Origin: Fibrobacter intestinalis
GTDB lineage: Bacteria > Fibrobacterota > Fibrobacteria > Fibrobacterales > Fibrobacteraceae
Length of the DNA: 58,845 nucleotides
Assembly: GCF_900167415.1 (NCBI RefSeq)
Contig: NZ_FUWU01000016.1
Coordinates: 1 to 58,845, forward strand
Direction of reading: 5' to 3'
Shown: positions 8,600 through 58,845 of the stretch, in pieces
Position numbering within the stretch: position 1 is the first letter of the stretch
Layout of the letters: every line of letters begins with the position of its first letter
Made by a program: the position numbers and the translations under genes
Notes under the pieces: model-generated
The model's database searches: none
What the model saw: the letters and a program-made list of their open reading frames with translations, nothing else
What the model was told of the DNA's origin: nothing

Positions 8600-9040
8600 A
8601 ACCGATTGCTTTGACAAGCTCAGCACCTGGCCGGCGGAGCCAGCAAACGATCCGCCTAGAGATTTTCGGCGTTTTTACATTTACCCATGAGTCTTGGAAA
8701 CTTGTTTTCCCTAGACGAATTGTCCCTATGGGCCCCAAAGTCCCGCTGGAAATTTTTCAGCGTTTTTACAACCGTCCGCGTCATACCGAATTTATTTCGG
8801 CATCTCATTTGCAGGGAAATAGTGAATAGTGGGTAGTGAATAGCGAAAAACTCGGAACTGCGTTTTCGGCTTTTTTTACCACTAAACACTAACCACTAGG
8901 TTTTAACTCCCGCACACAGGCTCTGATACAAGTTCAGGGTGGCGCACTTGCTGTTCAGGGGGGGGCATATTTGTGTGGATAGTGGGTAGTGCATCGTGCT
9001 GTCGTGAAATCGAAAGCGGGGCTGTGCGGGTGCGCCCTCG
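8600..9040 (+). repeat. Intergenic repeat region with one covarying hairpin and heptad tracts
   Basis: No gene is supported in 8600-9140. It holds a TTTGACAAGCTCAGCACC fragment (8611), the hairpin CCCATGA-GTCT-T-GGAAA...TTTCC-C-T-AGAC-GAATTGT (8684-8723), and 7-bp repeats of the AATAGTG/GGTAGTG type at 8818-8850, with their complement CACTAAA/CACTAAC at 8880-8898 and again at ~8980-9005. Confidence 0.6.
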
Positions 9041-9140: not shown

Positions 9141-9812
9141 TTGTTACGAAAACCATCTTTTTTTTTAGTCTTCTTTTTGCTTTTATTGTTGGCTTGCTCT
9201 GACAAAGGCACGGAACCTGAAGTCTTTGATGCTGCAAAAGTCTGCCCCGAAAGTGGTCGCGGAACGTTTGTGGATGAACGCGATGGTCAGGTGTATAAAT
9301 ACACCACCATTGGCAATCAAGTGTGGATGGCGCAGAATATGAACTTTTACATCGATGGAGTTGAAGTTGTTGAACCATCTACAGGTAAGACGGAAAAAGC
9401 ATCAAGCAGTTGTGATTCTGAAGAGGACAATTGTGCAGAAAATGGGTGGAGCTACAACTGGTATGCAGCCAATTATGCCTGCCCTACAGGTTGGCATTTG
9501 CCAAGTCAGGAAGAGTGGGAAACTCTGATAAAAAAGATGGGCGGCGATTGTGCACGTTTGCGTTCTACCACAGGAGGATGGAAGGAATTAAACCGTGGTG
9601 AAGGTGTAAGCGCAACAGATGATTGCGGGTTTGATTTGAAGCCTTCCAGTGGAAGGTATGATGGAGGATTTTCTGCGAATATGTGGGCACAAAACGTAGA
9701 TCAAGAAAATGTTATTTATGTACAAATTAAATCTTATGCGCAAGAAATAGAATTCAGTAGATATCGTAGAGATTTAAGATTTGCGTCCATTCGCTGCTTA
9801 AAAAATAAATAG
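9141..9812 (+). CDS. FISUMP-domain lipoprotein
   Basis: 223 aa from a TTG start; no clear ribosome site. Signal peptide with lipobox LLLAC (~Cys19), then the FISUMP domain: GTFVDERDGQVYKYTTIGNQ-VWMAQNMN (about 42-70), WSYNWYAANYACPTGWHLPS and EEWETLIKKMGG (about 105-135), and the C-terminal RFASIRCLKNK. The family is very abundant in Fibrobacter; its members are thought to be exported surface proteins of unknown function. First of four genes in line (9141, 9826, 10124, 10819) with short gaps, suggesting co-transcription. Confidence 0.85.
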   Translation: MLRKPSFFLVFFLLLLLACSDKGTEPEVFDAAKVCPESGRGTFVDERDGQVYKYTTIGNQVWMAQNMNFYIDGVEVVEPSTGKTEKASSSCDSEEDNCAENGWSYNWYAANYACPTGWHLPSQEEWETLIKKMGGDCARLRSTTGGWKELNRGEGVSATDDCGFDLKPSSGRYDGGFSANMWAQNVDQENVIYVQIKSYAQEIEFSRYRRDLRFASIRCLKNK

Positions 9813-13821: not shown

Positions 13822-14190
13822 TTAAACGAGTCCGGAGCTTTCGTCGATTCCAAGAGCGATGTTCATATTTTGAATGGCTGCTCCGGATGCGCCTTTGCCT
13901 AGGTTGTCCAGGATGACGGAAACCTGAATGGACTTTCCTTTGCCGAACACATAGACGTGGGCTTCATTTGTCCAGTTGCATTCCGTCGGGTCAAGCGAAC
14001 CGGCATCGAGAACGGGCTCTTCTTCGTAGGGAAGGACTTTGACAAATCGGGATCCGTCATAATGCTCGGCGAGAACGTCTTGAATATCCGTTGCTGTGGC
14101 ACTCTTTGTCAGCGCATTTTGGAAAATCGCCGTGGAAACCGCCATGCCTTTGTAATACGGCCCGACAATCGGATTGAAAAGGGGCGCAGA
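13822..14190 (-). pseudogene. 5'-truncated argC copy (N-acetyl-gamma-glutamyl-phosphate reductase fragment)
   Basis: The frame reads APLFNPIVGPYYKGMAVSTA ... IDESSGLV, matching roughly the last 120 of 321 residues of the intact argC at 24848-25813. The N-terminal NAD-binding part and catalytic Cys are absent; homology stops at ~14190. A 101-nt stretch (13975-14075) is identical to 25001-25101, while flanking parts differ at many sites (for example FQNALTKSATATDIQDVL versus FPSSLTKSATASDIQSIL). An ATG at 14145 could start a 107-aa protein, but it could not act as a reductase. Confidence 0.85.
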
Positions 14191-19383: not shown

Positions 19384-20127
19384 ATGCATATTAAACGATA
19401 CCTCTTCACAGCCTTCGCCCTTTTCACCCTCGTCGGGCTCGCTTCTGCGGAGCAGGTCTGTACGGAGAGCGAGTACAAGGGCCGCACCATCAAGAAGTGC
19501 CGGGACACGGGCGCTCCCGGAGGCGGTTCCTCCACGGATTCCTTTACGGACCCCCGCGACGGTCAGACCTACAAGACCGTCCAAATAGGGAACCAGACCT
19601 GGATGGCGGAGAACTTGAACTACGAAACGGACGACAGTTACTGCTACGACGACGAGCCCGCCAACTGCCATAAATACGGTCGGCTCTATACTTGGGCCGC
19701 GGCCATGCAAGCTTGTCCGGACGGCTGGCACCTGCCTAGCGATAATGAATTGAAAACGCTTTTCGAGACCGTGGGCGGAGAGTATCGCGAGGAAGAGACA
19801 ATCGGCTTTTTAAACACGAACGTGACGCTCCGCTATTACACCGATGCCGGCAAGAAACTCAAGTCCACTAGAGGCTGGGACGATAGCGAAGGGAAAAGCG
19901 GCAACGGCACGGACGAATATGGCTTTTCCGTGTTGCCAGCGGGTGCCCGCGGTTCAATGGGCGACTATGGGGTTGCCGGTGAGACCGCACTCTTCTGGGG
20001 TCTTTCGGTACTCTACGACCACATTGCGTACCGCTGGGGCTTCAGCAACGAGCACGAGGACGTGTACCTAGATGGCGGTCCCAAAATCGCTGGGTATTCC
20101 GTGCGTTGCCTCAGGGACTCGGACTAG
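19384..20127 (+). CDS. Secreted FISUMP-domain protein
   Basis: 247 aa. ATG 6 nt after AGGAGA and 9 nt after the ankyrin gene stop, so it may be the fourth gene of that operon. Signal peptide MHIKRYLFTAFALFTLVGLA. FISUMP motifs in order: DPRDGQTYKTVQIGNQTWMA (about 59-78), ENLNYETDDSYCYDDEPANC, YGRLYTWAAAMQACPDGWHL (about 99-118), GTDEYGFSVLPAGARG, and the end YSVRCLRDSD. GC content and codon use are richer (GCC, GAC, CTC) than in the ankyrin gene, suggesting a different origin. Nearly identical to the broken copy that follows. Confidence 0.88.
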   Translation: MHIKRYLFTAFALFTLVGLASAEQVCTESEYKGRTIKKCRDTGAPGGGSSTDSFTDPRDGQTYKTVQIGNQTWMAENLNYETDDSYCYDDEPANCHKYGRLYTWAAAMQACPDGWHLPSDNELKTLFETVGGEYREEETIGFLNTNVTLRYYTDAGKKLKSTRGWDDSEGKSGNGTDEYGFSVLPAGARGSMGDYGVAGETALFWGLSVLYDHIAYRWGFSNEHEDVYLDGGPKIAGYSVRCLRDSD

Positions 20128-24847: not shown

Positions 24848-25813
24848 TTAAACGAGTCCGGAGCTTTCGTCGATTCCGAGCGCGATGTTCATATTCTGAA
24901 TCGCCGCTCCCGAAGCGCCTTTGCCCAGATTGTCTATGATTGTCGTAACCTGTAGCGAGTTTCCCTTTCCGAAAACGTAAATGTGCGCTTCATTTGTCCC
25001 GTTGCATTCCGTCGGGTCAAGCGAACCGGCATCGAGAACGGGCTCTTCTTCGTAGGGAAGGACTTTGACAAATCGGGATCCGTCATAATGCTCGGCGAGA
25101 ATGCTCTGGATGTCCGATGCCGTGGCACTTTTGGTCAGGGAACTTGGGAAAATCGCCGTGGAAACCGCCATGCCCTTGTAAAACGGCCCGACAATCGGAT
25201 TGAAAAGGGGCGCATTTTCCAAGCCGCAAATTTTTTGCATTTCGGGCAGGTGCTTGTGGTGATGCCCCAGAGCATAAGGTCGCGGTGCAAAAAGTCGTGG
25301 GGATTCCCCGGGGTGCGATTGCTGTGCACCGTCCGCCTCGTAGGAAGCGATCATTTTTTTGCCGCCGCCGGAATAGCCGGTCAGACTGTAAGTAGCGAGA
25401 TCGGCTCTTTTTTGGAGCAAACCCGCAGCGATGAGAGGATACACGCCGAAAATGAATCCCGTCGCATGGCATCCCGGATTCGCAATGCGTGTTCCGCTTT
25501 CGATTTGTTTTCGGAAATCCGAGGAAAGTTCCGGAAGGCCGTACGCCCAATCCGGGTTTGTCCGGTGGGCGGTGGAGGCGTCGATGATTTTCGTTTTCGG
25601 GTTGGTACAGAGTGCCGCGCTTTCCACGGCGGCAGCATCGGGCAGGCAGAGAAAGGTCACGTCCGAAGAATTGATAAGGCGCGCCCGTTCCGCAGGATCT
25701 TTTCGCAATTCCGGCTGGATGCGGAGAATTTCCACGTCTTGGCGTTTGGCTAGGCGTTCGTAAATCTGCAGCCCTGTTGTGCCGGCTTCGCCGTCAACGA
25801 AAATTTTGAACAT
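24848..25813 (-). CDS. argC: N-acetyl-gamma-glutamyl-phosphate reductase
   Basis: 321 aa, the short ArgC class. It reduces N-acetylglutamyl phosphate to the semialdehyde with NADPH in arginine biosynthesis. The start MFKIFVDGEAGTTGLQIYER is the nucleotide-binding fold of this class, and the active-site Cys is in ANPGCHATGF (Cys115). His in LGHHHKHLPEM is the usual catalytic partner. The stop codon of the upstream SEC-C gene is 1 nt before this ATG, so they are coupled. A truncated copy of the 3' third lies at 13822-14190. The carbamoyltransferase argF is 11 kb away. Confidence 0.95.
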   Translation of the reverse strand: MFKIFVDGEAGTTGLQIYERLAKRQDVEILRIQPELRKDPAERARLINSSDVTFLCLPDAAAVESAALCTNPKTKIIDASTAHRTNPDWAYGLPELSSDFRKQIESGTRIANPGCHATGFIFGVYPLIAAGLLQKRADLATYSLTGYSGGGKKMIASYEADGAQQSHPGESPRLFAPRPYALGHHHKHLPEMQKICGLENAPLFNPIVGPFYKGMAVSTAIFPSSLTKSATASDIQSILAEHYDGSRFVKVLPYEEEPVLDAGSLDPTECNGTNEAHIYVFGKGNSLQVTTIIDNLGKGASGAAIQNMNIALGIDESSGLV

Positions 25814-28367: not shown

Positions 28368-28800
28368 TGCCCATGAGTCTTAAGAGTTTTACTCTTTTAG
28401 ACGAATTGTCCCTGGAAGGGAGCCTTTGCAAAAGCGTGCAAGGCGAATGGTGCGCCGCAAGCTTGCTTGCTTGTAGGCATTACTGAGCCGCCGCCGCGGA
28501 CGCAACGCGTCAACTTGGAAGCCCCCTTATCCCTTCCGCCCGCTGGCCTACAAGGCATCCCTGAAACTTGGAATCTCCGATTCCATAGTTGAAGTATCCC
28601 TGGAAGGGACAATTCGCCTAAAGGAAGCAGAGCTTCCAAGGCTCATGGGGCTTTGCACAATTCGTCTAGGGAAGCAAGCTTCCAAGACTCATGGGGCGCT
28701 GCATCCCTGAAACTAGGAATCTCCGATTCCGTAGTTGAAGTATCCCTGCAAGGGACAATTCGCCTAAAGGAAGCGGAGCTTCCAAGGCTCATGGGAAAGC
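28368..28800 (+). repeat. Array of four covarying hairpins with fixed companion hairpins
   Basis: Hairpins of the GYCT...AGRC type at 28377-28402, 28616-28642, 28664-28688 and 28762-28788; the first is inverted relative to the others. Between them are AACT-x-GGAATC-TCC-GATTCC-x-AGTT (28567-28590; 28713-28737) and TCCCT-NNA-AGGGA hairpins (28597-28609; 28743-28755). The same order is seen at 58620-58805 on the opposite strand. Frames that can be read through it are repeat-derived and not called. Confidence 0.85.
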
Positions 28801-29010
28801 GAGCATCTCGCAGTCTGCGAGAAGAAATTCCCCTTGTGAAAAAGAAATCCATGCTTTGAAAAAAATTATTTGAGGGAATTTGGAGGAAGATTGTATATAA
28901 TTCCCAAATTTTTGGTCGCCTCTAAAAATTCATTTTCAAAAAATCGGCTGCACGAGAGGCTTGTTGTTAGTTGTCAGTTATAGTTATTAGTTATCAGTTG
29001 CGAGTTCGTG
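28800..29010 (+). repeat. Composite repeat, copy C part 2 (TCTCGC hairpin, TTC-GAA ladder, TATATA boundary, heptads)
   Basis: TCTCGCA-GTC-TGCGAGA hairpin (~28805-28821), TTC-N-GAA units (ATTCCCCTTGTGAAAAAG, ATCCATGCTTTGAAAAAA), then GAGGAAGATTGTATATAATT-CCCAAA (~28881-28910), and a short heptad tract TAGTTGTCAGTTATAGTTAT (~28973-29000). No gene between rlmN and the PBP. Confidence 0.7.
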
Positions 29011-42082: not shown

Positions 42083-42289
42083 ATTTTGTCGTTATGTTGC
42101 CGTCTTGGCAAGCGTTTTTTTTCTTCGGTATTGAAAGATGTTTTTCTTTATGGCGAAACCATTGTTTTAGCGAAGAATAGAATGTTTTTTCCTGCTGGGC
42201 TTCCGTTCACAAGGCGACTTTTCTTTCGCAGAATGAATGTTTTTACAAAGGAAATTTTTTTTCTTGTAAAGCAAAAGGGAATTGCCTCC

Positions 42290-42500
42290 CCATAAGTCTT
42301 AGGAGCTTTGCAGCTTTGGACGAAATGAGATGTTTAGGGAAATGATTTTTTCCATCATAGCGATTGCTTCTTCAGAGAGGAATATTTCTTTCTCAAGGTG
42401 AATTCATTTTCAAAAGGTGAATTCCTCTTTCACAATGAGGATTTCTCTCGCTGGCTGCGAGATGCTTCGCTTGCCCTGCTATTCTTTAGTGTAGAATAGC
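42290..42500 (-). repeat. Dispersed composite repeat, copy D
   Basis: The 42083-42640 spacer has no gene. A worn GTCT...GGAC hairpin (42296-42321, inner AGCT-TTGC-AGCT; flank CCCATAA/GAAATG) faces a ladder read on the minus strand from ~42495: GCATCTCGCAGCCAGCGAGA, ATCCTCATTGTGAAAGAG, ATTCACCTTTTGAAAATG, ATTCACCTTGAGAAAGA. Confidence 0.65.
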
Positions 42501-58454: not shown

Positions 58455-58805
58455 GTTTTTTGGGGGGATTATATACGATCTTCCACCAAATACTCTCAAT
58501 TAAAAATTTTTTCAAAGTGTGAACATCTTTTTCGCAAAGTGGAACTCTTTTTTTTCAATACAGGAATTTCTTTTTCACAAGGAAAATTTCTTCTCGCAGA
58601 CTGCGAGGTGCTCGCCTACGCCCATGAGCCTTGGAAGCTCCGCTTCCTTTAGGCGAATTGTGCAAAGCCCCATGAGCCTTGGAAGCTCCGCTTCCTTTAG
58701 GCGAATTGTCCCTTTCAGGGATACTTCAACTACGGAATCGGAGATTCCTAGTTTCAGGGATGCAAAGCCCCATGAGTCTTGGGAACTTGTTCCCTTAGAC
58801 GAATT
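58455..58805 (-). repeat. Dispersed composite repeat, copy F (hairpin array, ladder, TATATA boundary)
   Basis: On the minus strand from 58805: GTCT...AGAC hairpin (58800-58776), AACTA-GGAATC-TCC-GATTCC-TAGTT (~58752-58727), TCCCT-GAA-AGGGA, two GCCT...AGGC hairpins (58702-58676, 58654-58628), a CTCGCAGTCTGCGAG hairpin (~58593-58607), TTC-N-GAA ladder (58500-58592), and GGTGGAAGATCGTATATAAT (~58466-58485). Same module order as 28560-28910. The frame spanning 58575-58835 is repeat-derived and not called. Confidence 0.85.
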
Positions 58806-58845
58806 GTGCAAAGCCGAAGCAATCTGTGCTGGCACCTCGTCATTG

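Follow-up and report, generated by a model that had tools for sequence, protein, structure and literature searches.

The hairpin family A and its sister hairpin B are, to judge from their sequences, probably mobile palindromes of the REPIN/BIME type: REP-like and non-autonomous, they would be recognised as single-stranded DNA in its folded form. REP elements rank with the commonest repeats in bacteria. The window, i.e. the whole stretch of 58,845 nt of Fibrobacter intestinalis DNA that was analysed, belongs to a genome of 3.29 Mb in 116 contigs. A sequence-only reading of the window had proposed three roles for the hairpins: a REP-like element moved by a RAYT-type transposase, a structured RNA, or a hairpin rewritten by template switching. 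Of these, the REP-like mobile element is the best supported. It is favoured by the A-B inverted doublets, the nesting in CGTC-type REPs, the presence of about 100 copies against none in five congeners, and an empty site for a composite that contains a third hairpin, C.

The main A cluster of the window (28370-28795) is intergenic and has the rlmN gene and a PBP1A-family gene on either side, both on the minus strand. All nine copies of A reported from the letters alone were found, essentially at the coordinates claimed, and both the feet (GTCT/AGAC, GCCT/AGGC) and the inner stems given there proved correct. Beyond these nine copies, the window contains the sister hairpin B, a small spacer hairpin between A and B, and a hairpin X. 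The features are:

8684..8723, + strand: A hairpin, feet GTCT/AGAC, inner stem GGAAAC/TTTTCC, without a B partner
28370..28409, + strand: A hairpin, feet GTCT/AGAC, inner stem AAGAGT/ACTCTT (allele of the longer repeat)
28409..28421, + strand: small spacer hairpin TCCCTGGAAGGGA
28422..28444, + strand: partner hairpin X, GCCTTTGCAAAAGCGTGCAAGGC
28559..28597, + strand: B hairpin, CCCTGA-AACT.GGAATC/GATTCC.AGTT-GAAGTAT
28597..28609, no strand: spacer hairpin between B and the inverted A
28609..28649, - strand: A hairpin, feet GCCT/AGGC, inner stem GGAAGC/GCTTCC, dimer with the B at 28559-28597
28657..28695, - strand: A hairpin, GTCT/AGAC, GGAAGC/GCTTCC, 2-nt loop; GCAAAGC tandem with the next A
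28705..28743, + strand: B hairpin
28743..28755, no strand: spacer hairpin TCCCTGCAAGGGA
28755..28795, - strand: A hairpin, feet GCCT/AGGC, dimer with the B at 28705-28743
42289..42328, + strand: worn A hairpin, CCCATAA...GAAATGA, feet GTCT/GGAC
58621..58661, + strand: A hairpin, feet GCCT/AGGC, inner stem GGAAGC/GCTTCC
58669..58709, + strand: A hairpin identical to the copy at 58621..58661, GCAAAGC joint (48-bp tandem)
58709..58721, no strand: spacer hairpin TCCCTTTCAGGGA
58721..58759, - strand: B hairpin, inverted partner of the A at 58669-58709
58769..58807, + strand: A hairpin, feet GTCT/AGAC, inner stem GGGAAC/GTTCCC
58808..58824, + strand: GCAAAGC plus CGAAGCAATC, 3' arm of the CGTC-type REP that encloses the array

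A palindrome CTCGCAGACTGCGAG within TTTCTTCTCGCAGACTGCGAGGTGCTCGC lies at 58593-58607 (+) and 28807-28821 (-) of the window; it is often found to the left of A and is a separate dispersed repeat. FISUMP-domain (Fib_succ_major) proteins, which fit an organism like Fibrobacter, are encoded at 9141-9812 and 19384-20127, and the window has repeated gene segments, e.g. 13822-14121 with 24848-25147.

For the genome-wide search, A was defined as CCCATGA-stem-GAATTGT with exact flanks and 18-42 nt between them. This gave 100 matches (59 forward, 41 reverse), and the control, in which the flank pattern was read backwards, gave 0 matches over the genome. One match (C76:924) lacks the fold typical of the others. 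The 99 copies read represent 31 alleles, the commonest four of which have 19, 18, 15 and 11 copies and together make up 63/99. The feet are matched as GTCT/AGAC in 42 copies, as GCCT/AGGC in 42, and as ATCT/AGAT and GACT/AGTC in one each; half-way forms are few (GCCT/AGAC 5, GTCT/AGGC 1). Arrays of A are linked via GCAAAGC or a similar sequence. The AAGAGT allele pairs with a partner of its own, X, and is always found within one longer repeat, which starts with GGGGGATAGGGTGAAGGGAAAAGGGGCTG. Downstream of this allele, several loci (L036, L038, L048 and L058) have a long tract in common (GCAAGCTTGCTTGCAGGCATTATCTTCGAGGAGACTAGTAGTATTCGTCATTGCG...); as many contigs stop at these repeats, the copy number is probably underestimated.

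B reads TCCCTGA-AACT.GGAATC..GATTCC.AGTT-GAAGTAT and usually follows A in inverted orientation. The spacer hairpin between them is CCCTT[TCG]CAGGG, the stem of which occurs as CCC/GGG and as CTC/GAG (L053, L086). Together, A, the small hairpin and the inverted B form a REPIN/BIME-like palindrome of ~90 nt, and the A-B units contain no gene. Hairpin X is followed by TCATGGG in the sister copies L051 and L072 and is, thus, an inverted partner of A as well. The A-B dimer has two alternative folds, either three arms closed by CCC.TGA/TCAGGG or one long hairpin, both of which are far stabler than shuffled sequences (RNA z -5.0 and -4.2; DNA z -4.3). The DNA fold of a single A inside the CGTC-type repeat R (see below) was no better than shuffles (z 0.52), and a cloverleaf fold of this arrangement was not supported. 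A hammerhead-like core (GA-stem-GAA) was discarded, as the remaining conserved core residues were missing on inspection by eye.

Since a search by flanks would bias the contrast between flanks and stems, A was also collected through its neighbour B. A parsable A was present upstream of B in 50 of 56 places, with the left flank CCCATGA in 45/50 and the right flank GAATTGT in 47/50, and variation was found at the second foot position and at the third and fifth inner-stem positions (~0.9-1.0 bit each). That stems vary more than flanks, as had been claimed, is thus no artefact of the search pattern. The claim that substitutions on one side of the stem are matched on the other held as well. Over 16 A/B alleles, 97.5% of the pair cells are paired (shuffled mean 79.7%, slid frames 31-49%), and two-sided changes occur at 8 of 10 pairs, with 34 two-sided cells against a shuffled mean of 10.0. 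The covariation score was 0.613; shuffled alleles reached 0.249 and slid frames no more than 0.161. Neither control is perfect, given related alleles and a structure derived from the same sequences, and the evidence is the size of the gap to the controls, to which no probability is attached. Because many copies of A were duplicated recently, the number of independent stem changes is far below the number of copies. Taken with its cousins in related genomes, A suggests that the folded shape is kept and not the sequence of the stem.

The strongest evidence is the third hairpin, C, which has at least 11 stems under recurring flanks in 20/111 genomes of the family. C reads TATACGA-CACT-T-stem-TT-AGTG-GAGTTAT; in this genome it forms C1-C2(-C2) arrays inside R-like repeats, and a small hairpin, T[NNNC]TTTG[GNNN]A, comes after them. 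The junction ..GA-NNCT-T-stem-(Y)TT-AGNN-GA.. is common to A, B and C; as C was noticed partly via this shared architecture, its existence is a finding and its likeness to A is partly due to selection. The genomes with C flanks usually have one or two copies each; this genome has 41 matches, G005 a single locus. Across the phylum, C is confined to two genera (20/168 genomes), and relaxing the right flank added no genome. Nearly all of the stems are self-complementary, e.g. GTCAAT, GGTAAC, GCTACT, GCCACT, GGACAT, GGGGT and GGGGC. Copies at one locus in related genomes have a common stem, which differs between loci. In 11 forms, 95.5% of the cells were paired, with 18 two-sided cells versus 6.8 after shuffling and a score of 0.318 versus 0.074. 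One series proceeds stepwise via a G.T wobble (GCTAC/GTAGC to GCTAC/GTGGC to GCCAC/GTGGC). Some copies are located directly downstream of a gene. In several genomes (loci L160, L166, L169, L172 and L173) another covarying hairpin (CCCCCGTAGCGTAC..GTACGTGAGGGGG) precedes C; there, both are enclosed by an outer GGCG/CGCC stem and by no CGTC REP.

A, A-B and C are found at the identical internal position of CGTC-type REP repeats. The repeat R has the form CGTCATTGCGAG-[inner hairpin]-|here|-G(A/T)(A/G)GCAATC, with A or A-B at the marked position. At one locus (L073), an unfilled R of 27 nt, CGTCATTGCGAGCAAGGCGAAGCAATC, is followed ~40 bp on by an R with an A insert of 49 nt. Among the 100 A chains, 17 have both halves of R around them, and a further 17 have the 3' half alone (6 after a left context of the CTGCGAG type, 5 after another A or B, 6 other). 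The longer AAGAGT repeat contains another 21 of the 100, and the loop of a GGAG-AAGCGGC REP contains 3; at L074 and L077, A lies inside the loop of another REP. R is present in 16/41 relatives, and no genome of the genus (six in all) lacks it. Its inner stem is hypervariable yet paired, with a stem of at least 4 bp in 46% of the longer inner segments versus 7% when halves were exchanged. R-type sequences are CGTCATTGC..GCAATCC and the dimer CGTCATGTT..AACATCCAG / CTGGATCC..AGGATGACG. With the tag, the complementary AT stem start, a tail that fits CCA and the occurrence of dimers, R by its sequence fits the CGTC REP superfamily. A literature search with the core sequence of R gave only unrelated papers among the matches listed, and nothing relevant was found in the literature on Fibrobacter repeats. 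The outer stem of the CGTC-type REP also covaries, both in the R repeats of relatives and at L165 and L167 (ATTGC/GCAAT, ATTCT/AGAAT, ATGTT/AACAT, ATCCT/AGGAT), and a tandem G.A is often possible beneath its inner hairpin.

Among 61 genomes, A and B are confined to this one. The other five genomes of the genus contain neither A, nor B, nor the GGAG REP, and a scan of 60 relatives with a covariance model, which scored up to 108 candidates per genome and gave at least 108 in this genome, returned one weak match and nothing more. Single matches to the A pattern in three congeners form no hairpin. A search of 85k species genomes, a set which may exclude this genome and very near ones, gave three A-pattern matches, about the number expected by chance, all of them non-folding and in other contexts; matches to the A and C patterns in viral contigs were non-folding as well. 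No empty site for A itself was found in other genomes. For C, an orthologous locus provides a comparison of this kind. In G033 and G067, a CGTC-REP inverted dimer of ~165 bp lies between two terminators (CGTCATGTT...AACATCCAG ... CTGGATCC...GGATGACG), and its left half contains a nested C. Flanks and terminators are shared by G064, G070 and G102, from which the composite dimer is cleanly missing. Because a single composite is involved, insertion explains this more simply than precise loss does.

The search for a Y1 (RAYT) gene, which had been suggested as a check, yielded nine genomic Y1 matches, most of them copies of IS200 tnpA or fragments of it. The sole RAYT-like gene (C60:47991-48272) scored about 73.5-75 bits, below the NCBIfam cut-off of 80, and within the genus sample it occurs in this genome only. 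The repeat on both sides of this gene is another REP (GGAG-AAGCGGC...GCCGCTT), neither A nor B, and the 3.2-kb locus of the gene contains no convincing A or B. Of the proposal of a REP-like element moved by a RAYT-type transposase, the REP-like part is supported; for the RAYT part, this gene is a candidate mover of A and B, no more. As a source of A and B, the IS200 tnpA and RAYT loci were rejected, since the loose pattern gave only non-folding matches and no convincing A or B. The RAYT-like domain is in frame inside the frame of an MmeI-like restriction gene (L093:1-2200, G000 contig C60:46539-48740). This open frame starts with an MmeI-type methyltransferase and a target-recognition domain, and the GGAG-AAGCGGC palindromes are read as protein (GEAAS..) on either side of the RAYT-like domain.

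In the mechanism proposed for the REP-like reading, A and B are hairpins on a nearly fixed junction, consisting of two conserved flanks and a bulge of 1 nt versus 2 or 3 nt, possibly with a tandem G.A mismatch below the feet. The sequence of the upper stem would be free provided that the arms pair. A single-strand nuclease (HUH/Y1-type) or a host activity may read flanks, bulge and fold at replication forks, and point changes in one arm would be kept mainly once the other arm follows, which would give covarying stems. A and an inverted B around the small hairpin make up the palindromic unit of ~90 nt; A-B units and C, which follow the inner hairpin of the CGTC-type REP and precede its 3' arm, may spread with such REPs or into them. 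That A, B and C instead constitute a separate class of shape-recognised mobile hairpins, with dedicated insertion at one fixed CGTC-REP site, is considered rather unlikely; if true, it would imply cassette-like array building with an effectively replaceable upper stem. Template switching at the replication fork (quasipalindrome correction), by contrast, would copy one arm onto the other, changing both together without selection for the fold, and recombination and duplication would account for the spread. The excess of matched feet (42 and 42) over half-way forms (5 and 1) agrees with this, and nested hairpins are natural substrates, yet half-way forms do exist, C has its stepwise wobble series, and a process that should perfect palindromes leaves the T versus TT/TTT bulge in place. 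Template switching could contribute to stem changes; alone it cannot explain the conserved flanks and bulge or the spread to ~60 places, and as the whole explanation it is doubtful.

The covarying stems of A/B and of C, the dimer RNA folds that beat shuffles (z -5.0, -4.2) and the one or two copies of C in many genomes, some just downstream of a gene, could also point to a structured RNA, with A-B or C acting in cis or as a small RNA whose fold is selected. However, an Rfam search detected only tRNAs in the window and nothing over the threshold at ten C loci. Gene orientation around the A clusters, roughly assessed, had no clear preference (same-sense + 9, same-sense - 5, convergent 9, divergent 6, others contig ends). 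Tandem arrays and nesting in different repeats also speak against an RNA, as do the half-way alleles, which by eye are about evenly G.T and A.C and so single out neither strand. With neither Rfam match, orientation pattern nor one-strand wobble excess, this role is quite improbable. Finally, recent exact duplication might be the whole story: a few unrelated hairpins with flanks shared by descent would have been multiplied, and the differences between their stems would be old and without meaning. Part of the A family does behave in this way, as four alleles account for 63/99 read copies and the AAGAGT allele is always in one longer repeat. But the sub-families A, B and C and at least 11 C stems keep pairing across loci and genomes, and the slid-frame and shuffle controls are far lower; the C family largely refutes duplication as the sole cause, which is very improbable.

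Almost fixed flanks and an almost fixed bulge beneath a rewritten stem amount to a natural mutagenesis experiment on what a mobilising enzyme would read and what it would ignore. With its many stems and one locus at which it is present or absent, C makes this question of enzyme recognition directly testable. The nested arrays indicate that palindromic repeats grow through acquiring extra hairpins.

Among known systems, the mitochondrial double-hairpin or repetitive hairpin-forming elements (e.g. PMC2800124) are likewise short hairpins, arranged in tandem, that become inserted into intergenic DNA, but they are organellar, and in sponges stems are conserved and loops vary, the opposite of A, B and C. 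Unlike an IS200/IS605-type element, A-B has no tnpA between its hairpins; IS200 tnpA is located elsewhere, with no convincing A or B nearby. As in GTAG REPs and REPINs, A is palindromic, intergenic, present in high copy number and arranged in inverted doublets, but A, B and C lack GTAG or a close variant of it; almost all copies have ATGA (A), CTGA (B) or ACGA (C) at the 5' foot of the hairpin. In the spacer hairpins of REPINs, compensatory changes are common (PMC3116915), and TnpA-REP binds and cleaves REPs with a swapped upper stem, for which tag and bulge matter (PMC8266576). The likeness to REPIN/BIME and RAYT systems consists of doublets that are inverted about a spacer hairpin, compensatory changes in that spacer, a stem bulge, and an upper stem needed structurally and not by sequence; the difference is that the RAYT-like gene of this genome adjoins a different, GGAG-tagged REP. 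The CGTC-tagged REPs include dRS3, RPE-4 and RPE-6 (PMC3733652, Di Nocera et al. 2013), with stem differences within families, heterodimers, structured spacers and dimers nested in other palindromes, and no dedicated transposase was found for this group (PMC3733652). R and the G033/G067 dimer resemble them in the CGTC tag, the AT stem start and the CCAG tails. A, B and C differ from these REPs in being extra hairpin modules inside them, without the CGTC tag and in arrays, and in having much freer stems beneath almost fixed flanks.
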